Shown here piece after piece: positions 1-7,546 of a stretch of DNA of 7,546 nucleotides (the stretch's first letter is position 1; each line of letters begins with the position of its first letter). Origin of the DNA: DRGV01 sp018903055 [NCBI: bacterium] (lineage in GTDB: Bacteria; UBP18; UBA7526). The translations under genes were made by a program, and so were the position numbers. Under the pieces are notes generated by a model that had not been told where the DNA came from, made no database searches, and worked only from the letters and a program-made list of their open reading frames with translations. The DNA lies in NCBI GenBank assembly GCA_018903055.1, contig JAHIPW010000099.1, positions 1 through 7,546 on the forward strand, read 5' to 3'.

Positions 1-998
1 AATAAGGCTTCTATTTCTTTATTTTTGCCGATGAGATAAGGGGAAATTTTATCTAGAAAAAGTAGAAGGCTCTTTCTCCCTCGTAAATATACAGCATATC
101 CCTGTTTTATACTTCCTCTGTATTTAAAAGATTTAAAGGCTATTCGGCTTAGAATACCAAATCTGAGTAAAAGATCCTGGACCTGATAAGCTAAGCGCTT
201 CGATGAAGTAGCATAGAAAGGGATGGTGTTGGACTTGGAAAAAAGGAATCCATCTCCAGACCATAACCTACCTAAGAATAAAGCAAGGTTATCTAGGGTG
301 AGAGAAAAAATTTCAGAAGGAATAAACTTTTCCGGTGCCTTTTTATTTTGTAATCCGAGATTTTCAATCCATATCCTGGCACCTGATTTTTCTGGTCTTT
401 TATTCTTCCTTTCCTTTAAACGTCTTCTCTTAGTTAAACCTTTATTCCAAGGAACCTGTCCTATAGTAAACTTCGTATCTTTTCCTGTACCAGCATATAC
501 TTCACATCGACCGTCATCCCGTATTGTGAGGGTTGGTTTTGTATTATCAAACTGCTTCAGGTTTTTTATGAAGTCTTCTATCTGGGCTTGATTGTTATTG
601 TAGTAGTAAAAGCCGCTGGGATGGCAGGTATTGCCTTCTGCCAATATGCCTGCCAGGACAATCAGTTTATATTCTTCCCACCTATTTTGGCCAACTACCG
701 GAAGGATGCGGGGAATGGCTACTTTTTCACCAATAGTAATGTTCCTTAACTCTTTCCAGCCTTCTATAGTAAGGAATGGATGATTATCCGTTACTACGAT
801 TTCCTTTCCTAGGGCAGTGGTAACTTTGAAAACAGGTTTATACCCATTTCGCATAGTAGAAACTACGCGGCGCTTTACTATCTTCAAATCATTATCACAA
901 CTTAGGATAATCATTTGTCCGCCTTTTCTATAAAGGTCCTCCACAGTTACCGACTGTCCAGTCTCAGCATCCACCAACGCTGTGCTACCAATGACACA
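1..998 (-). mobile_element. DnaE intein with LAGLIDADG homing endonuclease (N-terminal 332 residues; C-terminus off the window)
   Basis: This in-frame insertion in dnaE should splice itself out of the protein. Residue 1 is Cys (codon 998-996), followed by the block A pattern CVIGSTALVDAETG. Block B is at about residues 59-77 and contains TDNH (T70, H73), the T-x-x-H motif that assists the first splicing step. Two dodecapeptide motifs of a LAGLIDADG (DOD) endonuclease follow: VLAGILAEG (residues 114-122) and LFLGRLWSGDG (240-250), with candidate metal-binding acids E121 and D249. Between them is a very basic insert (183-204) beginning PWNKGLTK. Blocks F and G, including the terminal His-Asn, are not in the window. 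The host site GYGFNK is normally followed by Ser-His in DnaE, so the +1 nucleophile is predicted to be Ser. The DNA is A+T-richer than the extein: 19 of 60 G+C at 301-360 against 32 of 60 at 1801-1860. Confidence 0.95.
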
Positions 999-3242
999 TT
1001 TATTGAAGCCATAACCGGCGAAGTGGGAGATGAGGTCAAAGATTTTATTGGCAATACTTTTGCTTATATCATTCTTTATTGCTCCCTCTACAAACTCCTT
1101 CCTCTGCTGATCCAAAAGCACGGAGATCTTCTTCCCCATGGCCTGTCTTAAAAGGTCTGCCTTGGATAGAGAAAATCCTGCCAGTTCATGGGCAATTCTG
1201 ATTACCTGTTCCTGATATAAGATTACCCCATAGGTATCCTTCAGGATAGGCTCTAACTGGGGATGGAGATACTTAATGGGGATGAGGCCATGCTTCCTCC
1301 TGATGAAGTCATCCGTCATACCACTTCCCATGGGACCTGGTCGATATAAGGCGATTAAAGCAACAATATCCGAGAATTCCTCTGGCTTGAGTTTCTTCAA
1401 GAGGTCCCTCATCCCAGAAGACTCTATCTGGAATACCCCAACCGTATGGGCTCTCTTTAAGAGATCGAATGTCTTCTCATCATCCAAAGAGATTTTGTCC
1501 ATATCGATCTCGACATTCTCTTTCTCCTTTAGTATTCTTAGGGTATGGCCCATGACAGTAAGGTTGCGTAGGCCCAGGAAGTCCATCTTGAGTAGCCCGA
1601 TGGCCTCCAGGGGCCCCATGGCATACTGGGTGGCGATCTCACCCTTCGCTCCCTTAAAGAGGGGGGCATAGTTCGTCAGAGATTCCTTGGAGATGACTAC
1701 TCCCGCAGCGTGGGTTGAGGCATGGCGTACTATGCCCTCCAATGATTTTGCGACATCAACCAGCCTCTTCACTTTCTCGCCCTTCTGAACTATACCCTTT
1801 AGTTCGGGAACGGTTCTCAAGGCCTTCTCTATGGTCATGCCTATCTCGGGAGGAATGAGCTTGGCAATCCGATCCACTTCAGAATATGGAATCTTGAGGC
1901 TTCTTCCCACATCCCGAATCACCGCCCGGGCCTTCATGGTCCCAAAGGTGATGATCTGGGCTACGTTTTCTTTTCCATACTTTTCTACCACATAACTAAT
2001 GACCTCATCCCGTCTATCATCAGCGAAGTCGATATCGATATCGGGCATGGTCACCCGCTCAGGATTTAGAAAGCGTTCGAATAAGAGGTCGTGCTTTAGG
2101 GGATCGAGACTGGTAATGCCCAGAGAGTATGCCACCAGACTCCCCGGGGCAGAACCCCGCCCGGGACCAACGGCAATCCCTTTACTTTTGGCAAACTGGA
2201 CAAAATCCCAGACAATCAAAAAGTAAGAAGTGTAACCGGTATCCTTAATTATCTTTAGTTCATGCTCCAGCCTTTTCTTTAGCTCCGGAGTAACTCCGGA
2301 ATACCTTCTCTTTAGGCCTTGGTAGCAGAGCTCCTTTAAGTAGCCATCCAAGTCGCGGCCTTCCGGCGGTTCATAGTGGGGGAGATGGGTCTTCCCAAAC
2401 TCAAGCTCCAGGTTGCACCTTTCTGCAATCCTTACCGTATTCTCCAGGGCCTCCGGGGTCTGGTGGAAGAGGTCCCCCATCTCTTGAGGGGACTTGAGAT
2501 AGAACTCCTCTGTGGAGAACCTGAGGCGGTTGGGGTCATCGATGGTGGTGGCGGTCTGGATGGATAAGAGGATATCGTGGGCCGGAGCATCCTCTTTTCT
2601 TATATAGTGGCAGTCATTCGTGGCTACCAGGGGAATTCCCAGTTCCCTTCCCATAGAGATCAGTTCCCTATTTACCCCCTTCTGCTCCTCTATTCCGTGA
2701 TCGTGGAGCTCTAAGAAAAAATTTTCTTGCCCAAATATATCCCTATACTCCAAAGCCACCCTCTTCGCCTCCCCTATCCTATTATCCAGGATGAGGGTAG
2801 GAATCTCTCCCTTCAGGCAACCGGATAAAGCAATTATCCCCTCATGATACTTAGCCAGGACCTCCTTATCCACCCTTGGTTTATAGTAGAAGCCCTCTAA
2901 GTAAGCGATAGAGGCAAGCTTCACCAGATTCTTATAACCTCTCTCATCCTTCACTAAGAGCACTAGATGGTAGAAGGCCTCTTTTCCGGGTTTTAGAGAC
3001 TTCTCAAGCCGCGATTTGGGAGCAACGTAGACCTCACAACCAATGATGGGCTTTACCCCTCTAGCCATGGCCTTTCGATAGAAATCGATGACTCCGAACA
3101 TATTCCCATGATCCGTAATGGCTAAAGCCGGCATGCGATAGTCACGAGCGGCCTTCACCAGGTCTTTCAGGCGACAGGCACCATCTAAGAGACTGTACTC
3201 GGTATGGACATGAAGATGGACGAAGTGGGCATGCTCAACCAT
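1..3242 (-). CDS. dnaE: DNA polymerase III alpha subunit, 5' part, interrupted by an intein (runs off left edge)
   Basis: This is the catalytic subunit of the replicative DNA polymerase, which extends DNA at the fork. The visible protein begins MVEHAHFVHLHVHTEYS, an N-terminal PHP domain (about residues 5-280). The polymerase core follows, with the GPGRGSAPGSLVAY loop, PDIDIDF holding D401 and D403, and LLKMDFLGLRN holding D554. By alignment from memory these match the E. coli catalytic Asp triad 401/403/555. YQEQVIRIAHELAGFS and RQAMGKK are also family signatures. ATG at 3242 is chosen because AAGAGGT lies six bases upstream and the PHP motif starts at once. The frame stays open to the window edge. 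After residue 748 (GYGFNK) the intein begins; the C-extein (rest of the fingers, beta-clamp binding and OB regions) is outside the window. The PHP metal-ligand residues look intact, unlike in E. coli DnaE. Confidence 0.97.
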   Translation of the reverse strand, partial: MVEHAHFVHLHVHTEYSLLDGACRLKDLVKAARDYRMPALAITDHGNMFGVIDFYRKAMARGVKPIIGCEVYVAPKSRLEKSLKPGKEAFYHLVLLVKDERGYKNLVKLASIAYLEGFYYKPRVDKEVLAKYHEGIIALSGCLKGEIPTLILDNRIGEAKRVALEYRDIFGQENFFLELHDHGIEEQKGVNRELISMGRELGIPLVATNDCHYIRKEDAPAHDILLSIQTATTIDDPNRLRFSTEEFYLKSPQEMGDLFHQTPEALENTVRIAERCNLELEFGKTHLPHYEPPEGRDLDGYLKELCYQGLKRRYSGVTPELKKRLEHELKIIKDTGYTSYFLIVWDFVQFAKSKGIAVGPGRGSAPGSLVAYSLGITSLDPLKHDLLFERFLNPERVTMPDIDIDFADDRRDEVISYVVEKYGKENVAQIITFGTMKARAVIRDVGRSLKIPYSEVDRIAKLIPPEIGMTIEKALRTVPELKGIVQKGEKVKRLVDVAKSLEGIVRHASTHAAGVVISKESLTNYAPLFKGAKGEIATQYAMGPLEAIGLLKMDFLGLRNLTVMGHTLRILKEKENVEIDMDKISLDDEKTFDLLKRAHTVGVFQIESSGMRDLLKKLKPEEFSDIVALIALYRPGPMGSGMTDDFIRRKHGLIPIKYLHPQLEPILKDTYGVILYQEQVIRIAHELAGFSLSKADLLRQAMGKKISVLLDQQRKEFVEGAIKNDISKSIANKIFDLISHFAGYGFNKCVIGSTALVDAETGQSVTVEDLYRKGGQMIILSCDNDLKIVKRRVVSTMRNGYKPVFKVTTALGKEIVVTDNHPFLTIEGWKELRNITIGEKVAIPRILPVVGQNRWEEYKLIVLAGILAEGNTCHPSGFYYYNNNQAQIEDFIKNLKQFDNTKPTLTIRDDGRCEVYAGTGKDTKFTIGQVPWNKGLTKRRRLKERKNKRPEKSGARIWIENLGLQNKKAPEKFIPSEIFSLTLDNLALFLGRLWSGDGFLFSKSNTIPFYATSSKRLAYQVQDLLLRFGILSRIAFKSFKYRGSIKQGYAVYLRGRKSLLLFLDKISPYLIGKNKEIEAL

Positions 3243-3255: not shown

Positions 3256-3269
3256 GCTTTCTACTTTTA

Positions 3270-3427
3270 CCCCGTTAGAACTTGTCTTCATCAAAATAAC
3301 GGCGCGCTTCGCTCTCCGCCGTCTTTTGCTTATTGAAGTTCCGATGCCTCAAAATTCCGCTGGAAAAGATTAGGTGGTTTAGTAAAGCTTTCACTGAGTA
3401 AATGATACCACAAAATTTCTAACGGGG
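3270..3427. repeat. 11-bp inverted repeat pair enclosing one hairpin repeat in the dnaE leader
   Basis: CCCCGTTAGAA at 3270-3280 is the exact reverse complement of TTCTAACGGGG at 3417-3427. The pair encloses 136 bases containing the hairpin repeat at 3298-3355 and the -10 box of the candidate dnaE promoter. It looks like the terminal inverted repeats of a small non-autonomous element, but no target-site duplication is evident and no transposase is present. It could also be a long-range stem in the dnaE leader RNA. Confidence 0.5.
3298..3355 (-). repeat. 58-bp hairpin repeat, copy A (minus orientation)
   Basis: Read on the minus strand, this copy has a 32-base head beginning ATTTTGAGGCATCGGAACTT and ending in AAGCAAAA. 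A 26-base hairpin follows with arms GACGGCG and CGCCGTT and apex GCGAAGC. It differs from copy B (3886-3943) at one head base (GGCAT against GGTAT) and is inverted relative to it. It lies in the dnaE 5' leader between the candidate promoter and the ribosome binding site. Confidence 0.9.
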
Positions 3428-3430
3428 CAA
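3402..3430 (-). promoter_or_regulatory. Candidate sigma-70-type promoter for dnaE
   Basis: The minus strand has TTGCCC (3430-3425) and TATCAT (3407-3402) separated by 17 bases. That is 4 of 6 and 5 of 6 matches to the consensus boxes. It lies about 160 bases upstream of the dnaE start and just downstream of a minus-strand terminator, as expected for the start of a transcription unit. The -35 box is inside one arm of a GGGGCAA/TTGCCCC hairpin. Confidence 0.4.
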
Positions 3431-3452
3431 GTCCTTTTTTTAGTTTTGCCCC
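3424..3452. other. GGGGCAA/TTGCCCC inverted repeat overlapping the candidate dnaE -35 box
   Basis: GGGGCAA at 3424-3430 pairs with TTGCCCC at 3446-3452 around a 15-base T-rich loop. No U-tract follows on either strand, so it does not look like an intrinsic terminator. Its overlap with the candidate -35 box makes an operator possible, but nothing else supports that. Confidence 0.35.
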
Positions 3453-3457
3453 TCGAA

Positions 3458-3487
3458 GAAAAAAGCCCCAAAAAAAATCTTGGGGTT
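3458..3487 (-). terminator. Intrinsic terminator, minus strand, upstream of dnaE
   Basis: On the minus strand CCCCAA (3485-3480) pairs with TTGGGG (3471-3466) around an 8-base loop, and C then six T (3464-3459) follow. It would end minus-strand transcription arriving from the right. No gene for it to serve is visible between here and the plus-strand nuclease, so it may be a relic or may isolate dnaE. Confidence 0.5.
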
Positions 3488-3543
3488 ATAAGAAAAAATT
3501 GGTATCTTAAAGGCTCTTTAGAATTTTAAGCGCTCTCTGAGCA

Positions 3544-3572
3544 TTGACAAGCATAATTGGTATCATTATCTT
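3544..3572 (+). promoter_or_regulatory. Candidate promoter ahead of the BON-like fragment
   Basis: A perfect -35 box TTGACA (3544-3549), a 17-base spacer and TATCTT (4 of 6 for the -10) lie 25 bases before the ATG at 3598. No clear ribosome binding site follows, so it may be the surviving promoter of a decayed gene. Confidence 0.35.
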
Positions 3573-3597
3573 TCTTGAGATTTCTGAAAAAGTCAGA

Positions 3598-3678
3598 ATG
3601 AGCAGGGATTACAGTGATATTGAAGACGAGATTCAGGATGCGCTGCGCTGGCATCCTAGAGAGCATCAAATTGATTAA
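3598..3678 (+). pseudogene. 26-codon fragment resembling the start of a BON domain, cut by a repeat
   Basis: ATG at 3598 opens a frame of 26 residues reading SRDYSDIEDEIQDALRWHPR and ending EHQID before a TAA at 3676-3678. The pattern of an acidic amphipathic helix, then ALRWHPR and a short strand, resembles from memory the first helix and strand of BON domains found in periplasmic and osmotic-stress proteins, where D-x-x-I-V-V would follow. Here the text stops exactly where the 59-bp repeat begins (3673), and that repeat supplies the stop codon. I read it as a gene remnant broken by the repeat. It could instead be a short peptide gene or chance; no good ribosome binding site is visible. The frame is open upstream to a TGA at 3538-3540, through a hydrophobic stretch. 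Confidence 0.35.
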
Positions 3679-3731
3679 TATTTAATCATCAACGGCGGAG
3701 AACGAAGTGCGCCGTTTAATATTAAGCATTG
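3673..3731 (+). repeat. 59-bp hairpin repeat, copy D1
   Basis: This copy is identical over 59 bases, in inverted orientation, to the window end (7488-7546). The core hairpin (3691-3716) has arms AACGGCG and CGCCGTT and apex ACGAAGT. Outside it, TTAATATT (3675-3682) and AATATTAA (3718-3725) form a second arm pair. The core is a variant of the hairpin in the 58-bp family, with a different flank. The match may extend further, because the other copy is cut by the window end. Confidence 0.9.
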
Positions 3732-3885
3732 GCAGTGATATTGAAAGCATAGGATTCTAATCCCATTGGAGATTTTATCACCATAATCGTTAATTCGCAT
3801 CATCGTAATCATTCTTAATTTGACAAACGAAAGATAGTATGTTAATTTAACACATAGAAAAGAAAATTCTGCGTTTTTAAGTTTA
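3732..3885. other. A+T-rich spacer with no gene; weak plus-strand promoter candidate
   Basis: No credible coding frame is present. TTGACA at 3820-3825 is a perfect -35 box, but the best -10 about 17 bases on (TAATTT, 3843-3848) is poor, so it is only a weak candidate for driving the nuclease. CAGTGATATTGAA at 3733-3745 repeats 3612-3624 in direct orientation, on the two sides of the 59-bp repeat. Confidence 0.4.
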
Positions 3886-3943
3886 ATTTTGAGGTATCGG
3901 AACTTCAATAAGCAAAAGACGGCGGAGAGCGAAGCGCGCCGTT
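3886..3943 (+). repeat. 58-bp hairpin repeat, copy B
   Basis: The head starts ATTTTGAGGTATCGGAACTT and runs to AAGCAAAA. A hairpin at 3918-3943 follows with arms GACGGCG and CGCCGTT. It is inverted relative to copy A, so the two bracket 3298-3943. The copy sits 43 bases ahead of the nuclease ATG. Confidence 0.92.
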
Positions 3944-3970
3944 ATTTTGCCTGCCTCGTTGGCAGACAGG
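3944..3970 (+). repeat. Short ATTTTG unit with a different hairpin
   Basis: Directly after copy B the ATTTTG junction recurs and is followed by CTGCC and GGCAG around the loop TCGTT. It looks like another module of the same family, shortened and with an unrelated stem. It ends where the nuclease translation signals begin. Confidence 0.5.
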
Positions 3971-3986
3971 TGCTTTGGTGGTTGCT

Positions 3987-4658
3987 ATGAAGCGTTTTTT
4001 AGTTTTTCTCATTATAGTGGCTCTCCTTGGTGGAGGAGCCTTCTTTGTCAGCAAGAAGCCTCAGGTTAAGAATTTCTTTCTTTCTTTGAAGGAGAGGCCA
4101 ACCGAGCCAGAAGAGGCGCCCCCACCAGTGGTTGAGCCTAAGGTAGAGAAAAAAGTCTCGGTGGCAAAAGCAAAACCTGTTATGAAAAAGATTGATACCG
4201 ACGGGGATGGAATCCCGGATACCTTTGTCATGGAAGGAGAGCCAAGAAGTGCACCTGCCGCCTCAGAAAGGATTCCTAAGGGGCTCATCATTGCCTACTG
4301 TTACGCTGTAGCTGATGGGGATACTATCTATGTAAAATTAAAGGACGGAAGAAAAGATAAAATAAGATTTGTAGGAATCAATACCCCGGAAATAAAGCAT
4401 GGAGATAAAGGAAAGGATGAGCCGGGAGGGCAAGAAGCAAAGAAGTTTGTCATGGAGAGATGTTTAGAAAAGACGGTCTTTTTAGATATAGATGATGAAA
4501 GTCCGGTTGATTACTACGGAAGGACTCTGGCCCTGGTCTACCTTCCTTCTACCAAAAGTAAAATACCTCAAAATTCCTTGAATGCTGATTTATTGCGCCG
4601 GGGCTATGCTGATATCCTCTATATTCCCCCCTCGGAGTTTGATCCCCGCTATTGGTAG
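3987..4658 (+). CDS. Membrane-anchored thermonuclease-like (SNase-fold) protein with a calcium-loop motif
   Basis: This 223-residue protein is related to staphylococcal nuclease, a calcium-dependent phosphodiesterase that cuts DNA and RNA. Residues 4-21 are a hydrophobic segment after a short basic start, a signal anchor without a lipobox Cys. A Pro/Glu/Lys-rich linker follows (about 36-66), then DTDGDGIPD (70-78), a thrombospondin-type-3-like calcium loop, and the nuclease domain (about 99-223). Residues corresponding by eye to the catalytic set are present: D110 and D112 in ADGDT, R127 in RFVGINTPE, E135, and R179 in YGRTLALVY; the second calcium Asp is Asn (N132), as in many homologues. 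The protein ends YIPPSEFDPRYW, before the last helix usual in the family. ATG at 3987 is preferred, with GGTGG five bases upstream; TTG at 3975 would add four residues. The active site should lie outside the cytoplasmic membrane. Confidence 0.85.
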   Translation: MKRFLVFLIIVALLGGGAFFVSKKPQVKNFFLSLKERPTEPEEAPPPVVEPKVEKKVSVAKAKPVMKKIDTDGDGIPDTFVMEGEPRSAPAASERIPKGLIIAYCYAVADGDTIYVKLKDGRKDKIRFVGINTPEIKHGDKGKDEPGGQEAKKFVMERCLEKTVFLDIDDESPVDYYGRTLALVYLPSTKSKIPQNSLNADLLRRGYADILYIPPSEFDPRYW

Positions 4659-4661
4659 CCT

Positions 4662-4888
4662 ATTTTGAGCGTAATCGAGAAACAAGGTTCTGACGAAGTC
4701 AGGTTCTTATTTTGAGGTATTGGAACTTCAATAAGTAAAAGAGGCTTCCAGTGGCGTCAGCCACGAAGACTCATTTTGAGGTATCGGAATTTCAATAAAC
4801 AAAAGACGGCGGAGAGCGAAGCGCGCCGTCATTTTGAGGTACTGGAACTTTCATAAGCAAAAGACGGCGGAGAGCGAAGCGCGCCGTC
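4662..4888 (+). repeat. Tandem array of four ATTTTGAG hairpin units between convergent genes
   Basis: Units start with ATTTTGAG at 4662 (47 bp), 4709 (64 bp), 4773 (58 bp) and 4831 (58 bp). Unit 1 has a different head (ATTTTGAGCGTAATCGAG) and the hairpin CTGAC-GAA-GTCAG. Unit 2 has the common head but the hairpin GTGGC-GTCA-GCCAC with outer CTTC/GAAG and GAG/CTC pairs. Units 3 and 4 carry the standard hairpin with arms GACGGCG and CGCCGTC. The array begins three bases after the nuclease stop and ends inside the stop codon of the facing small gene, so it may end transcription from both sides, although no long U-tract follows the hairpins. Confidence 0.92.
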
Positions 4889-5354: not shown

Positions 5355-7132
<1,778 letters not shown>

Positions 7133-7134
<2 letters not shown>

Positions 7135-7420
7135 ACTTTATGATTGCCAGGATATCCTCTTCCTTTAAGATGAGATATTCCTCGCCCTCTAACTTTATCT
7201 CTGTTCCTCCGTACTTACTGTAAAGAACCTTGTCTCCCTTCTTCACCTCTAAGGGGACAACTTTTCCATCTTCAAGCATCTTTCCCTTTCCTACCTCAAC
7301 CACTTTTCCTTCCTGGGGCTTCTCCTTAGCAGTATCGGGAATGATGATTCCTCCCTTCTTTACCTCTTTGGGCTCCAGAGGCTTTACCAGCACTCTATCT
7401 CCTAATGGTTTAATGGCCAT
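7133..7420 (-). CDS. groES: Co-chaperonin GroES (Hsp10)
   Basis: This is the 10 kDa lid of the GroEL chamber, a cytoplasmic seven-subunit ring. The protein has 95 residues, the normal size. It begins [19 protein letters not shown], the signature N-terminus. The mobile loop that grips GroEL is at about residues 18-33 and includes the hydrophobic GGIIIPDTA. The core strands ([25 protein letters not shown]) and the C-terminal [14 protein letters not shown] pattern are intact. ATG at 7420 is chosen because AAGGAGGTG ends five bases upstream. It is the first gene of the groES-groEL operon. No CIRCE-type inverted repeat (TTAGCACTC-N9-GAGTGCTAA) is seen in the 126 bases upstream that the window contains; the leader carries CACGGAT repeats instead. 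Confidence 0.99.
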
Positions 7421-7439: not shown

Positions 7440-7490
7440 CACGGATAATCACGGATTCTTTACGGATGATCACTGATTTATCCGTGTCAA
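7440..7490. repeat. CACGGAT repeats in the groES leader, with a lone TTGACA
   Basis: CACGGAT occurs at 7440-7446 and 7450-7456, TACGGAT at 7461-7467 and the inverse ATCCGTG at 7480-7486. This is the same family as in the groES-groEL spacer. On the minus strand TTGACA (7490-7485) spans the junction with the 59-bp repeat and could be a -35 box, but no good -10 follows at 15-18 bases, so I do not call a promoter. Confidence 0.65.
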
Positions 7491-7546
7491 TGCTTAATAT
7501 TAAACGGCGCACTTCGTTCTCCGCCGTTGATGATTAAATATTAATC
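7488..7546 (-). repeat. 59-bp hairpin repeat, copy D2, cut by the window end
   Basis: This is the reverse complement of 3673-3731 without a mismatch over all 59 bases. It runs to the last base of the window, so the full repeat may be longer. It lies upstream of groES. Confidence 0.9.

Follow-up and report, generated by a model that had tools for sequence, protein, structure and literature searches.

The question raised by this locus is what the short hairpin-bearing repeats around its genes are and how they came to be there. The stretch analysed (the window; 7,546 nt of contig JAHIPW010000099.1 of the bacterial assembly GCA_018903055.1, DRGV01 sp018903055) is the whole of one contig of a draft genome of 1.085 Mb that comprises 191 contigs and is 85% complete. 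A first-pass annotation made from the letters alone had described a modular hairpin family here. The repeats probably form a family of tiny palindromic mobile elements, non-autonomous and confined to one lineage, of the same kind as the Rickettsia palindromic elements (RPE). Their anatomy is like that of repetitive extragenic palindromic (REP) and IS200 ends, and no mobiliser was found among the enzyme families searched. The direct basis consists of presence in six genomes, recombination of parts, mostly single-copy empty sites, covariation of a guide with its target, and in-frame copies within protein genes. G000 denotes the window's own genome, G001 to G005 the other genomes of its family (the six are 53-93% complete), and L plus a number a stretch fetched around matches.

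Anatomy of the repeat unit

The 32-base head ATTTTGAGGTATCGGAACTTCAATAAGCAAAAG occurs five times in the window, on the plus strand at 3886, 4709, 4773 and 4831 and on the minus strand at 3323-3355. It is joined to the stem ACGGCGGAGAGCGAAGCGCGCCGTY (the GC stem) at 3919, 4806, 4864 and, on the minus strand, 3298-3322, and to the stem AGGCTTCCAGTGGCGTCAGCCACGAAGACTC at 4742. A module with a different head (ATTTTGAGCGTAATCGAGAAAC, at 4662) carries a third stem, AAGGTTCTGACGAAGTCAGGTTCTT (4684-4708), a type that follows head ATTTTGAGGTATCGGAACTTCAATAAGCAAAAG in 23 of 77 units elsewhere. The units and modules are as follows.

3298-3355, minus strand: 58-nt unit of ATTTTG, head and guide CAAAAG (3323-3355) and GC stem (3298-3322); right repeat ATTTTG at 3292-3297; 98% match to the 3886 copy; inside the inverted-repeat stretch 3267-3430
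3886-3943, plus strand: 58-nt unit separating dnaE from the staphylococcal-nuclease-like (SNase) gene; targets ATTTTG at 3886-3891 (left) and 3944-3949 (right); the head, with guide CAAAAG, reaches 3918, and the GC stem covers 3919-3943
4662-4708, plus strand: module with a second-class head (ATTTTG AGCGTAATCG AGAAAC) and stem AAGGTTCTGACGAAGTCAGGTTCTT, 3 bases past the SNase stop codon; near copy at the same place in G005 (L166)
4709-4772, plus strand: 64-nt unit in which the head and guide TAAAAG precede stem AGGCTTCCAGTGGCGTCAGCCACGAAGACTC; absent from the orthologous G005 (L166) array
4773-4830, plus strand: 58-nt unit in which the head and guide CAAAAG precede a GC stem; absent from the same G005 array
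4831-4888, plus strand: 58-nt unit of head, guide CAAAAG and GC stem, flanked on the right by ATTCTT; present in G005 (L166)

In the G005 array the first and fourth modules are joined directly, and the window has two more between them; the pair appears to illustrate gain or loss of modules.

Distribution and modularity

A search with head plus stem gave 18 matches in the own genome (17 covering the head), 21, 10, 14, 12 and 17 in the five other family genomes and none in 54 genomes outside the family. The positive genomes (6 of 60) are exactly the family members, in a set that jumps from the same family to the same domain and holds no searched genome of intermediate kinship. With up to two mismatches allowed, a 17-nt core gave 19 matches in the 1.09-Mb genome, against a single match for the reversed pattern used as a control. 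Scanned for exact 21-mers, genome contigs gave matches only in the metagenome-assembled genomes (MAGs) HyVt-354 and CSMAG_2684, 2709 and 2758 (17 stretches); the same scan of viral contigs gave no match, and a virus-borne origin was rejected on that result. Near-identical copies, up to 98% over 63 nt, stand at unrelated loci in different genera.

Within 1.12 Mb of stretches fetched around matches, a non-random sample, 124 head matches (up to 6 mismatches in 25) were collected. Exclusion of 43 matches without a recognised stem and 4 identical copies left 77 distinct units, of which 48 carried the GC stem, 23 the AAGGTTC..GGTTCTT type, 5 GGCTTCC..GAAGACTC and 1 GAGACAACTTGTTTGGCTC. The same stems also follow other heads, such as ATTTCT-GAGCGAAGCGA-AGAAAC, ATTTTC-GAACGAAGTGA-GAAAAC and ATTTTA-TGAGCAAGGCGAA-TAAAAC. 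The first-pass claims that one 32-base head is attached to at least two hairpin types, and that ATTTTG junctions join further modules with other stems, are borne out in the window by the five heads on two stems and by the 4662 module. Collecting the heads and listing the hairpins on each, as had been proposed, turned up multiple copies with four stem types, and heads and stems recombine, whereas a few copies with fixed partners would have spoken against the idea. A CRISPR (clustered regularly interspaced short palindromic repeat)-like array was rejected, as the 24-31-nt 'spacers' are the repeated stems themselves. At L192 (minus strand, 1214) a head is interrupted by a 22-nt insert, CACGAAGTG..AGCCAT.

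Target repeats and guide

Filled sites carry two ATTTTR-like hexamers, and a single copy was present in four of the five empty orthologous sites examined; these comparisons cross species and genera, so that the target letters differ. The four pairs are as follows.

L201/L133: single ATTTTG in the empty site
L180/L153: single ATTTTTA in the empty site against a two-module insert
L196/L128: ATTCTG in the empty site
L187/L173, in a gene (L187 filled): GTTTTG in the empty site against ATTTTG..ATCTTG in the filled one

Left and right hexamers of 56 singleton units agreed at 4.95 of 6 positions (4.52 after shuffling), and none of 20,000 shuffles came as high as the observed value. Among the seven counted singletons with an unusual left hexamer, the right one was identical in five and differed by one base in two; two L192 units (left ATTTTT) were excluded from the singletons, as another head follows them.

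Directly 5' of the hairpin foot stands a guide, YAAAA followed by G or C, which is complementary to the target and covaries with it; the foot motif was CAAAA in 35 and TAAAA in 30 units (65 of 77). In the 71 of 77 units used for the guide test, the sixth base of the left target and its guide partner were G:C in 30, A:T in 27, A/C in 7, G/T in 3 and T/T in 4. Covariation was found at base 6 (Fisher test on the G:C, A:T, A/C and G/T classes, p 3.7e-9) and between left and right targets (p 1.9e-5), and was weaker between guide and right target (p 0.008); the guide-target p-values overstate significance because related copies are not independent. Both units with the guide CGAAA, in different genes and genomes, lie at ATTTCG, where no other unit of the 71 is found. 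Pairing between guide and target scored 4.76 of 5 in 62 modules with class-1 heads (4.30 shuffled) and 4.54 in 28 other modules, four of them with variant class-1 heads (3.86 shuffled); none of 10,000 shuffles reached either value, the search pattern itself having fixed TTT and AA, likewise in the shuffles. Other heads use the target/guide combinations CT/AG, TC/GA, TA/TA and TT/AA, and also ATTTTG with AAAAA (5) or AGAAA (3).

These repeats are where an explanation by miniature inverted-repeat transposable elements (MITEs) has to be weighed. Were the units MITEs left by a DDE-type insertion sequence that has since been lost, their ATTTTR hexamers would be ordinary target-site duplications, in line with the 6-bp direct repeats, the single copy in empty sites and the identity of left and right in most unusual hexamers; inverted-repeat elements and one rve-type open reading frame (ORF) are also present, the former in the same genomes and the latter in the own genome. 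Such an origin leaves unexplained both the covariation of guide and target and the common ends with exchanged stems. By inspection, moreover, the unit ends (AGGTATCGG.. on the left, ..GCCGTY, as in GCCGTT, on the right) are not terminal inverted repeats, and DDE_Tnp_1 was found in none of the six family genomes. We consider this origin unlikely.

In-frame copies inside protein genes

A feature that the first-pass annotation overlooked is that copies lie in frame within protein genes. When the 77 units were scanned for open frames, 11 units, all of 57 nt, lay within ORFs of 165 to 1045 amino acids; the scan leaves out other-strand frames and three units (L137, L186 and L201) judged spurious or upstream of the start. 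Among the 48 GC-stem units, 13 are 57 nt long, and 11 of those 13 are the in-gene units. The length is divisible by three in 11 of 11 in-gene units and 7 of 66 others, a contrast that is partly circular, since an intact ORF was the basis for counting a unit as in-gene. The comparison covers intact frames, a few stems were also shortened by the search pattern, and orthologues and domains were relied on instead of these counts.

The consensus of the 57-nt unit is open in three of six frames. The inserted peptide was read in three frames, as ILRYRNFNKQKTGQAKRAVI, RSIGTSISERRGKRSAPSF and, from the other strand, TARFACPVFYLLKFRYLKI, with variations. Ten of the 11 host proteins were scanned against Pfam and eight against NCBIfam. 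A Pfam domain spans the insert in the type III pantothenate kinase (CoaX; L172) and in an LCP-family transferase of the own genome, which also has an insert at the N terminus of a glycosyltransferase. Further hosts are Mfd, a proton antiporter subunit, a Kdo/WaaP-type kinase, a transglycosylase, an HlyD-type adaptor, a HEAT protein (its copy has a 58-type stem and a head minus one base) and a protein with an HHH motif.

Empty orthologues lack exactly 19 residues in both cases found (L187 against L173, and L206 against L136 and L159). In two further cases the insert is also in the orthologue (L194/L169 and L195/L171), and for the other in-gene units no close orthologue covering the site was found within the fetched stretches. 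The L194/L169 element is identical at 51 of 51 positions, compared with 252 of 300 in the coding flank and 152 of 316 upstream. The L195/L171 element matches at 49 of 51 positions (256 of 301 and 182 of 312 beside it). Here the hexamers on the two sides show matching differences from one genome to the other, a pattern that suggests either independent insertions at the same site or conversion. Four inserts (L170, L185, L187 and L194) are N-terminal, before a hydrophobic stretch, a position where tolerance is easy. Ten of the 11 in-gene units read in the sense direction, a bias that may be due to selection on frame and signal peptide.

Long form and the possibility of an RNA function

In several genomes the head runs on into an element of about 160 nt, of which 24 near-full copies among 35 hits were aligned. 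It mostly starts RRGYATCGGAATTT and ends in a hairpin followed by ATCTTR. The terminal loop was GAA in 12 of the 24 copies (15 including three with mismatched stems), GGA in 3, GCA in 1, AAA in 2 and another in 3, giving a GNA loop in 16 of 24 (19 of 24 with the mismatched three). One inner hairpin has been swapped for at least four unrelated stems, with the remaining scaffold conserved; given the common left end, one set of ends with interchangeable stems thus holds for both sizes. Two-sided changes were seen at 7 of 41 consensus pairs. Five of the 24 copies, at three loci, lie inside ORFs, as assigned by Pfam scan.

L180 and L153: in an NTP_transferase ORF
L178: at the N terminus of an amidase
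L136 and L159: in a Wzy_C ORF, on the opposite strand; the Pfam domain runs through the insert

At L175 (minus strand, 4557) an AATGC..GCATT scaffold lies inside a long element.

The conserved scaffold of the long form, its two-sided changes and its swapped stems would also suit functional RNA or regulatory hairpins (terminators or leaders) kept by selection instead of mobile DNA; some copies precede open reading frames, and the L194/L169 element is better conserved than the sequence beside it. A known RNA was rejected, as an Rfam scan of seven sources (E up to 1) gave no row for the elements, the only row being a sub-threshold sR1 match elsewhere. Intergenic units between co-directional genes had no preferred orientation (18 against 20; this test leaves out 18 clusters that were convergent, divergent or at a contig edge). 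Among tetraloops UUCG was outside the ten commonest listed, though GGAA, a GNRA loop, was slightly enriched (27 against 19), and the in-frame copies sit in many unrelated genes. A selected RNA role is, on these results, distinctly unlikely.

Hairpin folds and loops

The oligonucleotide d(GCGAAGC) and GNA loops are known as very stable DNA mini-hairpins, and the first-pass annotation had placed CGAAG at or beside the apex of nearly all stems. Folding as DNA covered the CTGACGAAGTCAG, CCACGAAGAC and GC stems, with the AACGAAGTG stem outside this set. It placed GAA in a triloop in CTGACGAAGTCAG, and in the CCACGAAGAC stem CGAAG lay beside an apex loop of GTCA, as the first-pass annotation had said. 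In the GC stem only the outer 6 bp were predicted to pair, and GAGAGCGAAGCG formed an open 12-nt loop. The guide was paired with the right target around the stem in five of five head-strand sequences, and not in one reverse-strand sequence.

Among perfect 6-bp hairpins in the 1.12 Mb, GAA/TTC was narrowly the commonest triloop (82, and 15 in a single shuffle; for AAA/TTT the figures are 80 and 28), a count made in regions chosen for holding elements and with copies of a few families counted repeatedly; AAA and AGA triloops were likewise enriched, which weakens the loop enrichment. The pattern fits DNA mini-hairpins and is no proof of them.

Search for a mobiliser

The first-pass annotation had compared the hairpins with REP-type elements and called for a search for a REP-associated (RAYT/Y1) transposase gene. 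The Y1 profile PF01797 had no match in the six family genomes at E up to 10, against matches in 36 of 54 non-family genomes at E up to 1e-3. RVT_1 was likewise found in none of the six, and no TnpB exceeded the cut-off, the sole sub-threshold match being an ORF read by eye as an asparagine-synthase-like protein. IS110 had one match among the six, in G002. The rve domain was found in one open ORF of the own genome (L220, contig G000:C132, 1-1071, minus strand) and in one with a stop in G002. Resident Y1, RVT_1, DDE_Tnp_1, TnpB, IS110 and rve proteins were rejected as a family-wide source, the profile searches being limited to these families; a gene could have been missed in one incomplete genome, hardly in all six.

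True REP elements moved by a resident Y1 transposase are therefore highly improbable. REPs are known to combine a hairpin and a 5'-foot motif with high copy number, clustering and, in several species, some intragenic positions (PMC6006769 and PMC3733652), and what survives of the REP comparison is the modular, interspersed hairpin with a foot motif complementary to the flanking target. The units nevertheless lack a GTAG/GTGG tag at the hairpin foot, are 57-58 nt in length, include a long linker and have target repeats; no Y1 gene was found in the family genomes, and there was no orientation bias between co-directional genes.

With the tested transposases mostly missing, spread could have needed no dedicated enzyme, the units arising by template switching in replication or by recombination between short ATTTTR repeats on single-stranded DNA. 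Many unrelated short palindromes do differ in presence or absence between family genomes, and array modules differ between ATTTTR repeats. The near-identical copies at unrelated loci in different genera, the defined ends and the preferred target nevertheless argue for a specific process, and an enzyme-free origin appears rather unlikely.

Proposed mechanism and its weighing

We favour a hairpin-recognising, guide-directed single-strand mechanism like that of IS200/IS605. A unit of 57/58 nt consists of a left ATTTTR target, the head, the guide and a hairpin often with a GAA loop, followed by a right copy of the target. The active form would be single-stranded and its hairpin bound by a nuclease or transposase, and at both ends the guide would choose an ATTTTR target by pairing with it, the way IS200/IS605 guides do. 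New units would often land on the ATTTTR of old ones, which would give arrays like that at 4662-4888. The 57-nt variant would persist in genes because it amounts to 19 codons and its consensus is open in three of six frames. Candidate mobilisers are a diverged or different single-strand nuclease, a lost enzyme, or an enzyme on an unsampled replicon.

Several results weigh against this mechanism and against the mobile-element reading as a whole. The tested recombinase families are absent or rare, as set out above, and no strand bias of the sort that targeting of the lagging strand might produce appeared between co-directional genes. The empty orthologues at L206 have no clear target hexamer after divergence (CTGGTCACTGAA). 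Strict pairing at base 6 is broken in 14 of the 71 units (the 7 A/C, 3 G/T and 4 T/T), the targets ATTTAA, ATTTGA and GTTTAA mismatch their guides, and the weaker link of the guide to the right target and the non-independence of copies belong here as well; the ATTTTR/YAAAA pairing could be a structural feature alone. Single-unit DNA folds differ modestly from shuffles (z -0.5 to -3.7), and the inner GC-GAA-GC mini-hairpin of the GC stem is a reading by eye, absent from the computed fold.

That the units form a new class of guide-directed single-strand hairpin element, with one hairpin and guide for both ends and exchangeable cassettes, moved by a novel enzyme or by none, is possible, if doubtful. 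If true, such a class, part of it 57 nt long and so able to live inside genes, would be spreading in a deep lineage where the tested recombinase families are absent or rare.

Comparison with known systems

IS200/IS605 and REP ends carry, next to the 5' foot of the hairpin, a short motif complementary to the flanking target, and in IS200/IS605 this guide interacts with that target and the final right-end bases (PMC6006769). The units share with IS200/IS605 a guide 5' of the hairpin foot that is complementary to the flanking target and covaries with it. Unlike those sequences, they are flanked by the target on the left and on the right, have a single hairpin for the two ends and carry a longer Watson-Crick guide; no transposase or TnpB was found. 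Their likeness to REP/RAYT systems lies in stems of 24-31 nt (the criterion being 20-40 nt), 18 own-genome matches, arrays and intragenic copies.

RPEs lie in frame within unrelated conserved protein genes and also between genes, at about 150 nt (PMC10969869 and PMC2229807); RPE-4 and RPE-6 are described as repeats without a dedicated transposase (PMC3733652). Tolerance of such an insert is reported for a guanylate kinase that bears an RPE (PMC2229807). The present repeats are likewise palindromic, both intergenic and in frame in unrelated genes, with a long form of similar size. They differ from RPEs in the 57/58-nt form, modular heads and stems, ATTTTR repeats, guide-target complementarity and hosts, which are the unclassified MAGs HyVt-354 and CSMAG_2684/2709/2758 and not Rickettsiales. 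An NCBIfam scan of eight in-gene proteins gave no rickettsial element model among the rows listed (the best 25 rows for four of them). We know of no established mechanism of spread for in-frame palindromic insertions in Rickettsia.

CGTC-tagged palindromes also have no dedicated transposase and are in some cases intragenic (PMC3733652). The units here are palindromic, without a mobiliser as searched, and in some cases intragenic. Compared by eye with the definition in PMC3733652, they have an inconstant CGTC at the stem end (GTT is commoner), no CCA tail, and stems that are not of 8-9 bp starting with AT. The Neisseria Correia/NEMIS repeats fall into a size class located within genes and another found almost exclusively between them (PMC2229807), and Correia/NEMIS, ERIC and YPAL resemble the present family as small repeats, some fused in frame, with size classes reminiscent of the 57/58-nt units. 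These are about 100-200 bp, however, and terminal inverted repeats are present in Correia and ERIC and, by the table of PMC2229807, absent in YPAL. MITEs of the DDE type share the target-site duplication and differ in their ends. No description of this head/stem family was found among the papers listed by searches of the open-licence literature.

In its working the family resembles an IS200/REP end and in its placement an RPE; the criteria tested assign it to neither. It provides, in a second lineage unrelated to Rickettsia, filled and empty sites, a definable target, a covarying guide and clean insertions in enzyme genes as testable parts. It also indicates how conserved proteins can acquire inserts of exactly 19 residues from very short elements, and the six related genomes are a basis for hunting a hairpin-recognising enzyme.

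Other features of the window and related genomes

The groEL and groES genes in the window were recognised by eye from their translations. The remaining features are as follows.

3-3242, minus strand: dnaE with an intein (Intein_splicing and LAGLIDADG_3 domains); the ORF runs off the left contig end
between the 3886 unit and the 4662 module: SNase gene, from a domain scan
3634-3730, plus strand: second scaffold without a head, with a GC stem of the same kind, AACGGCGGAGAACGAAGTGCGCCGTT (3691-3716), adjoining the hairpin AGGATGC..GCATCCT (3635-3657); related stretches in L026, L146 and L175
7479-7546, minus strand: second copy of the stretch 3673-3740 (68 nt, 96% complementary), cut by the contig end

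The inverted repeat CCCCGTTAGAA..TTCTAACGGGG at 3267-3430 holds a head-plus-stem unit between its arms; in L143, L156 and L168, inverted repeats of a similar kind delimit presence/absence differences. Repeats of the ACGGATTAGCACGGAT type with inverted partners occupy 7000-7136 and 7441-7500; arrays like these are insertion/deletion differences between related genomes. Short GC palindromes such as CCTGTCTGCCGACAGGCAGG are present or absent between orthologous sites (L129, L206, L209 and others). The transfer-messenger RNA (tmRNA) gene is enlarged by insertions to 423 nt in G001 (L196, 2940-3362) and 396 nt in the own genome (L207, 1523-1918), compared with 351-352 nt in L128, L145 and L178; these inserts lie outside the head family, and in L196 a 65-nt palindromic insert is visible.

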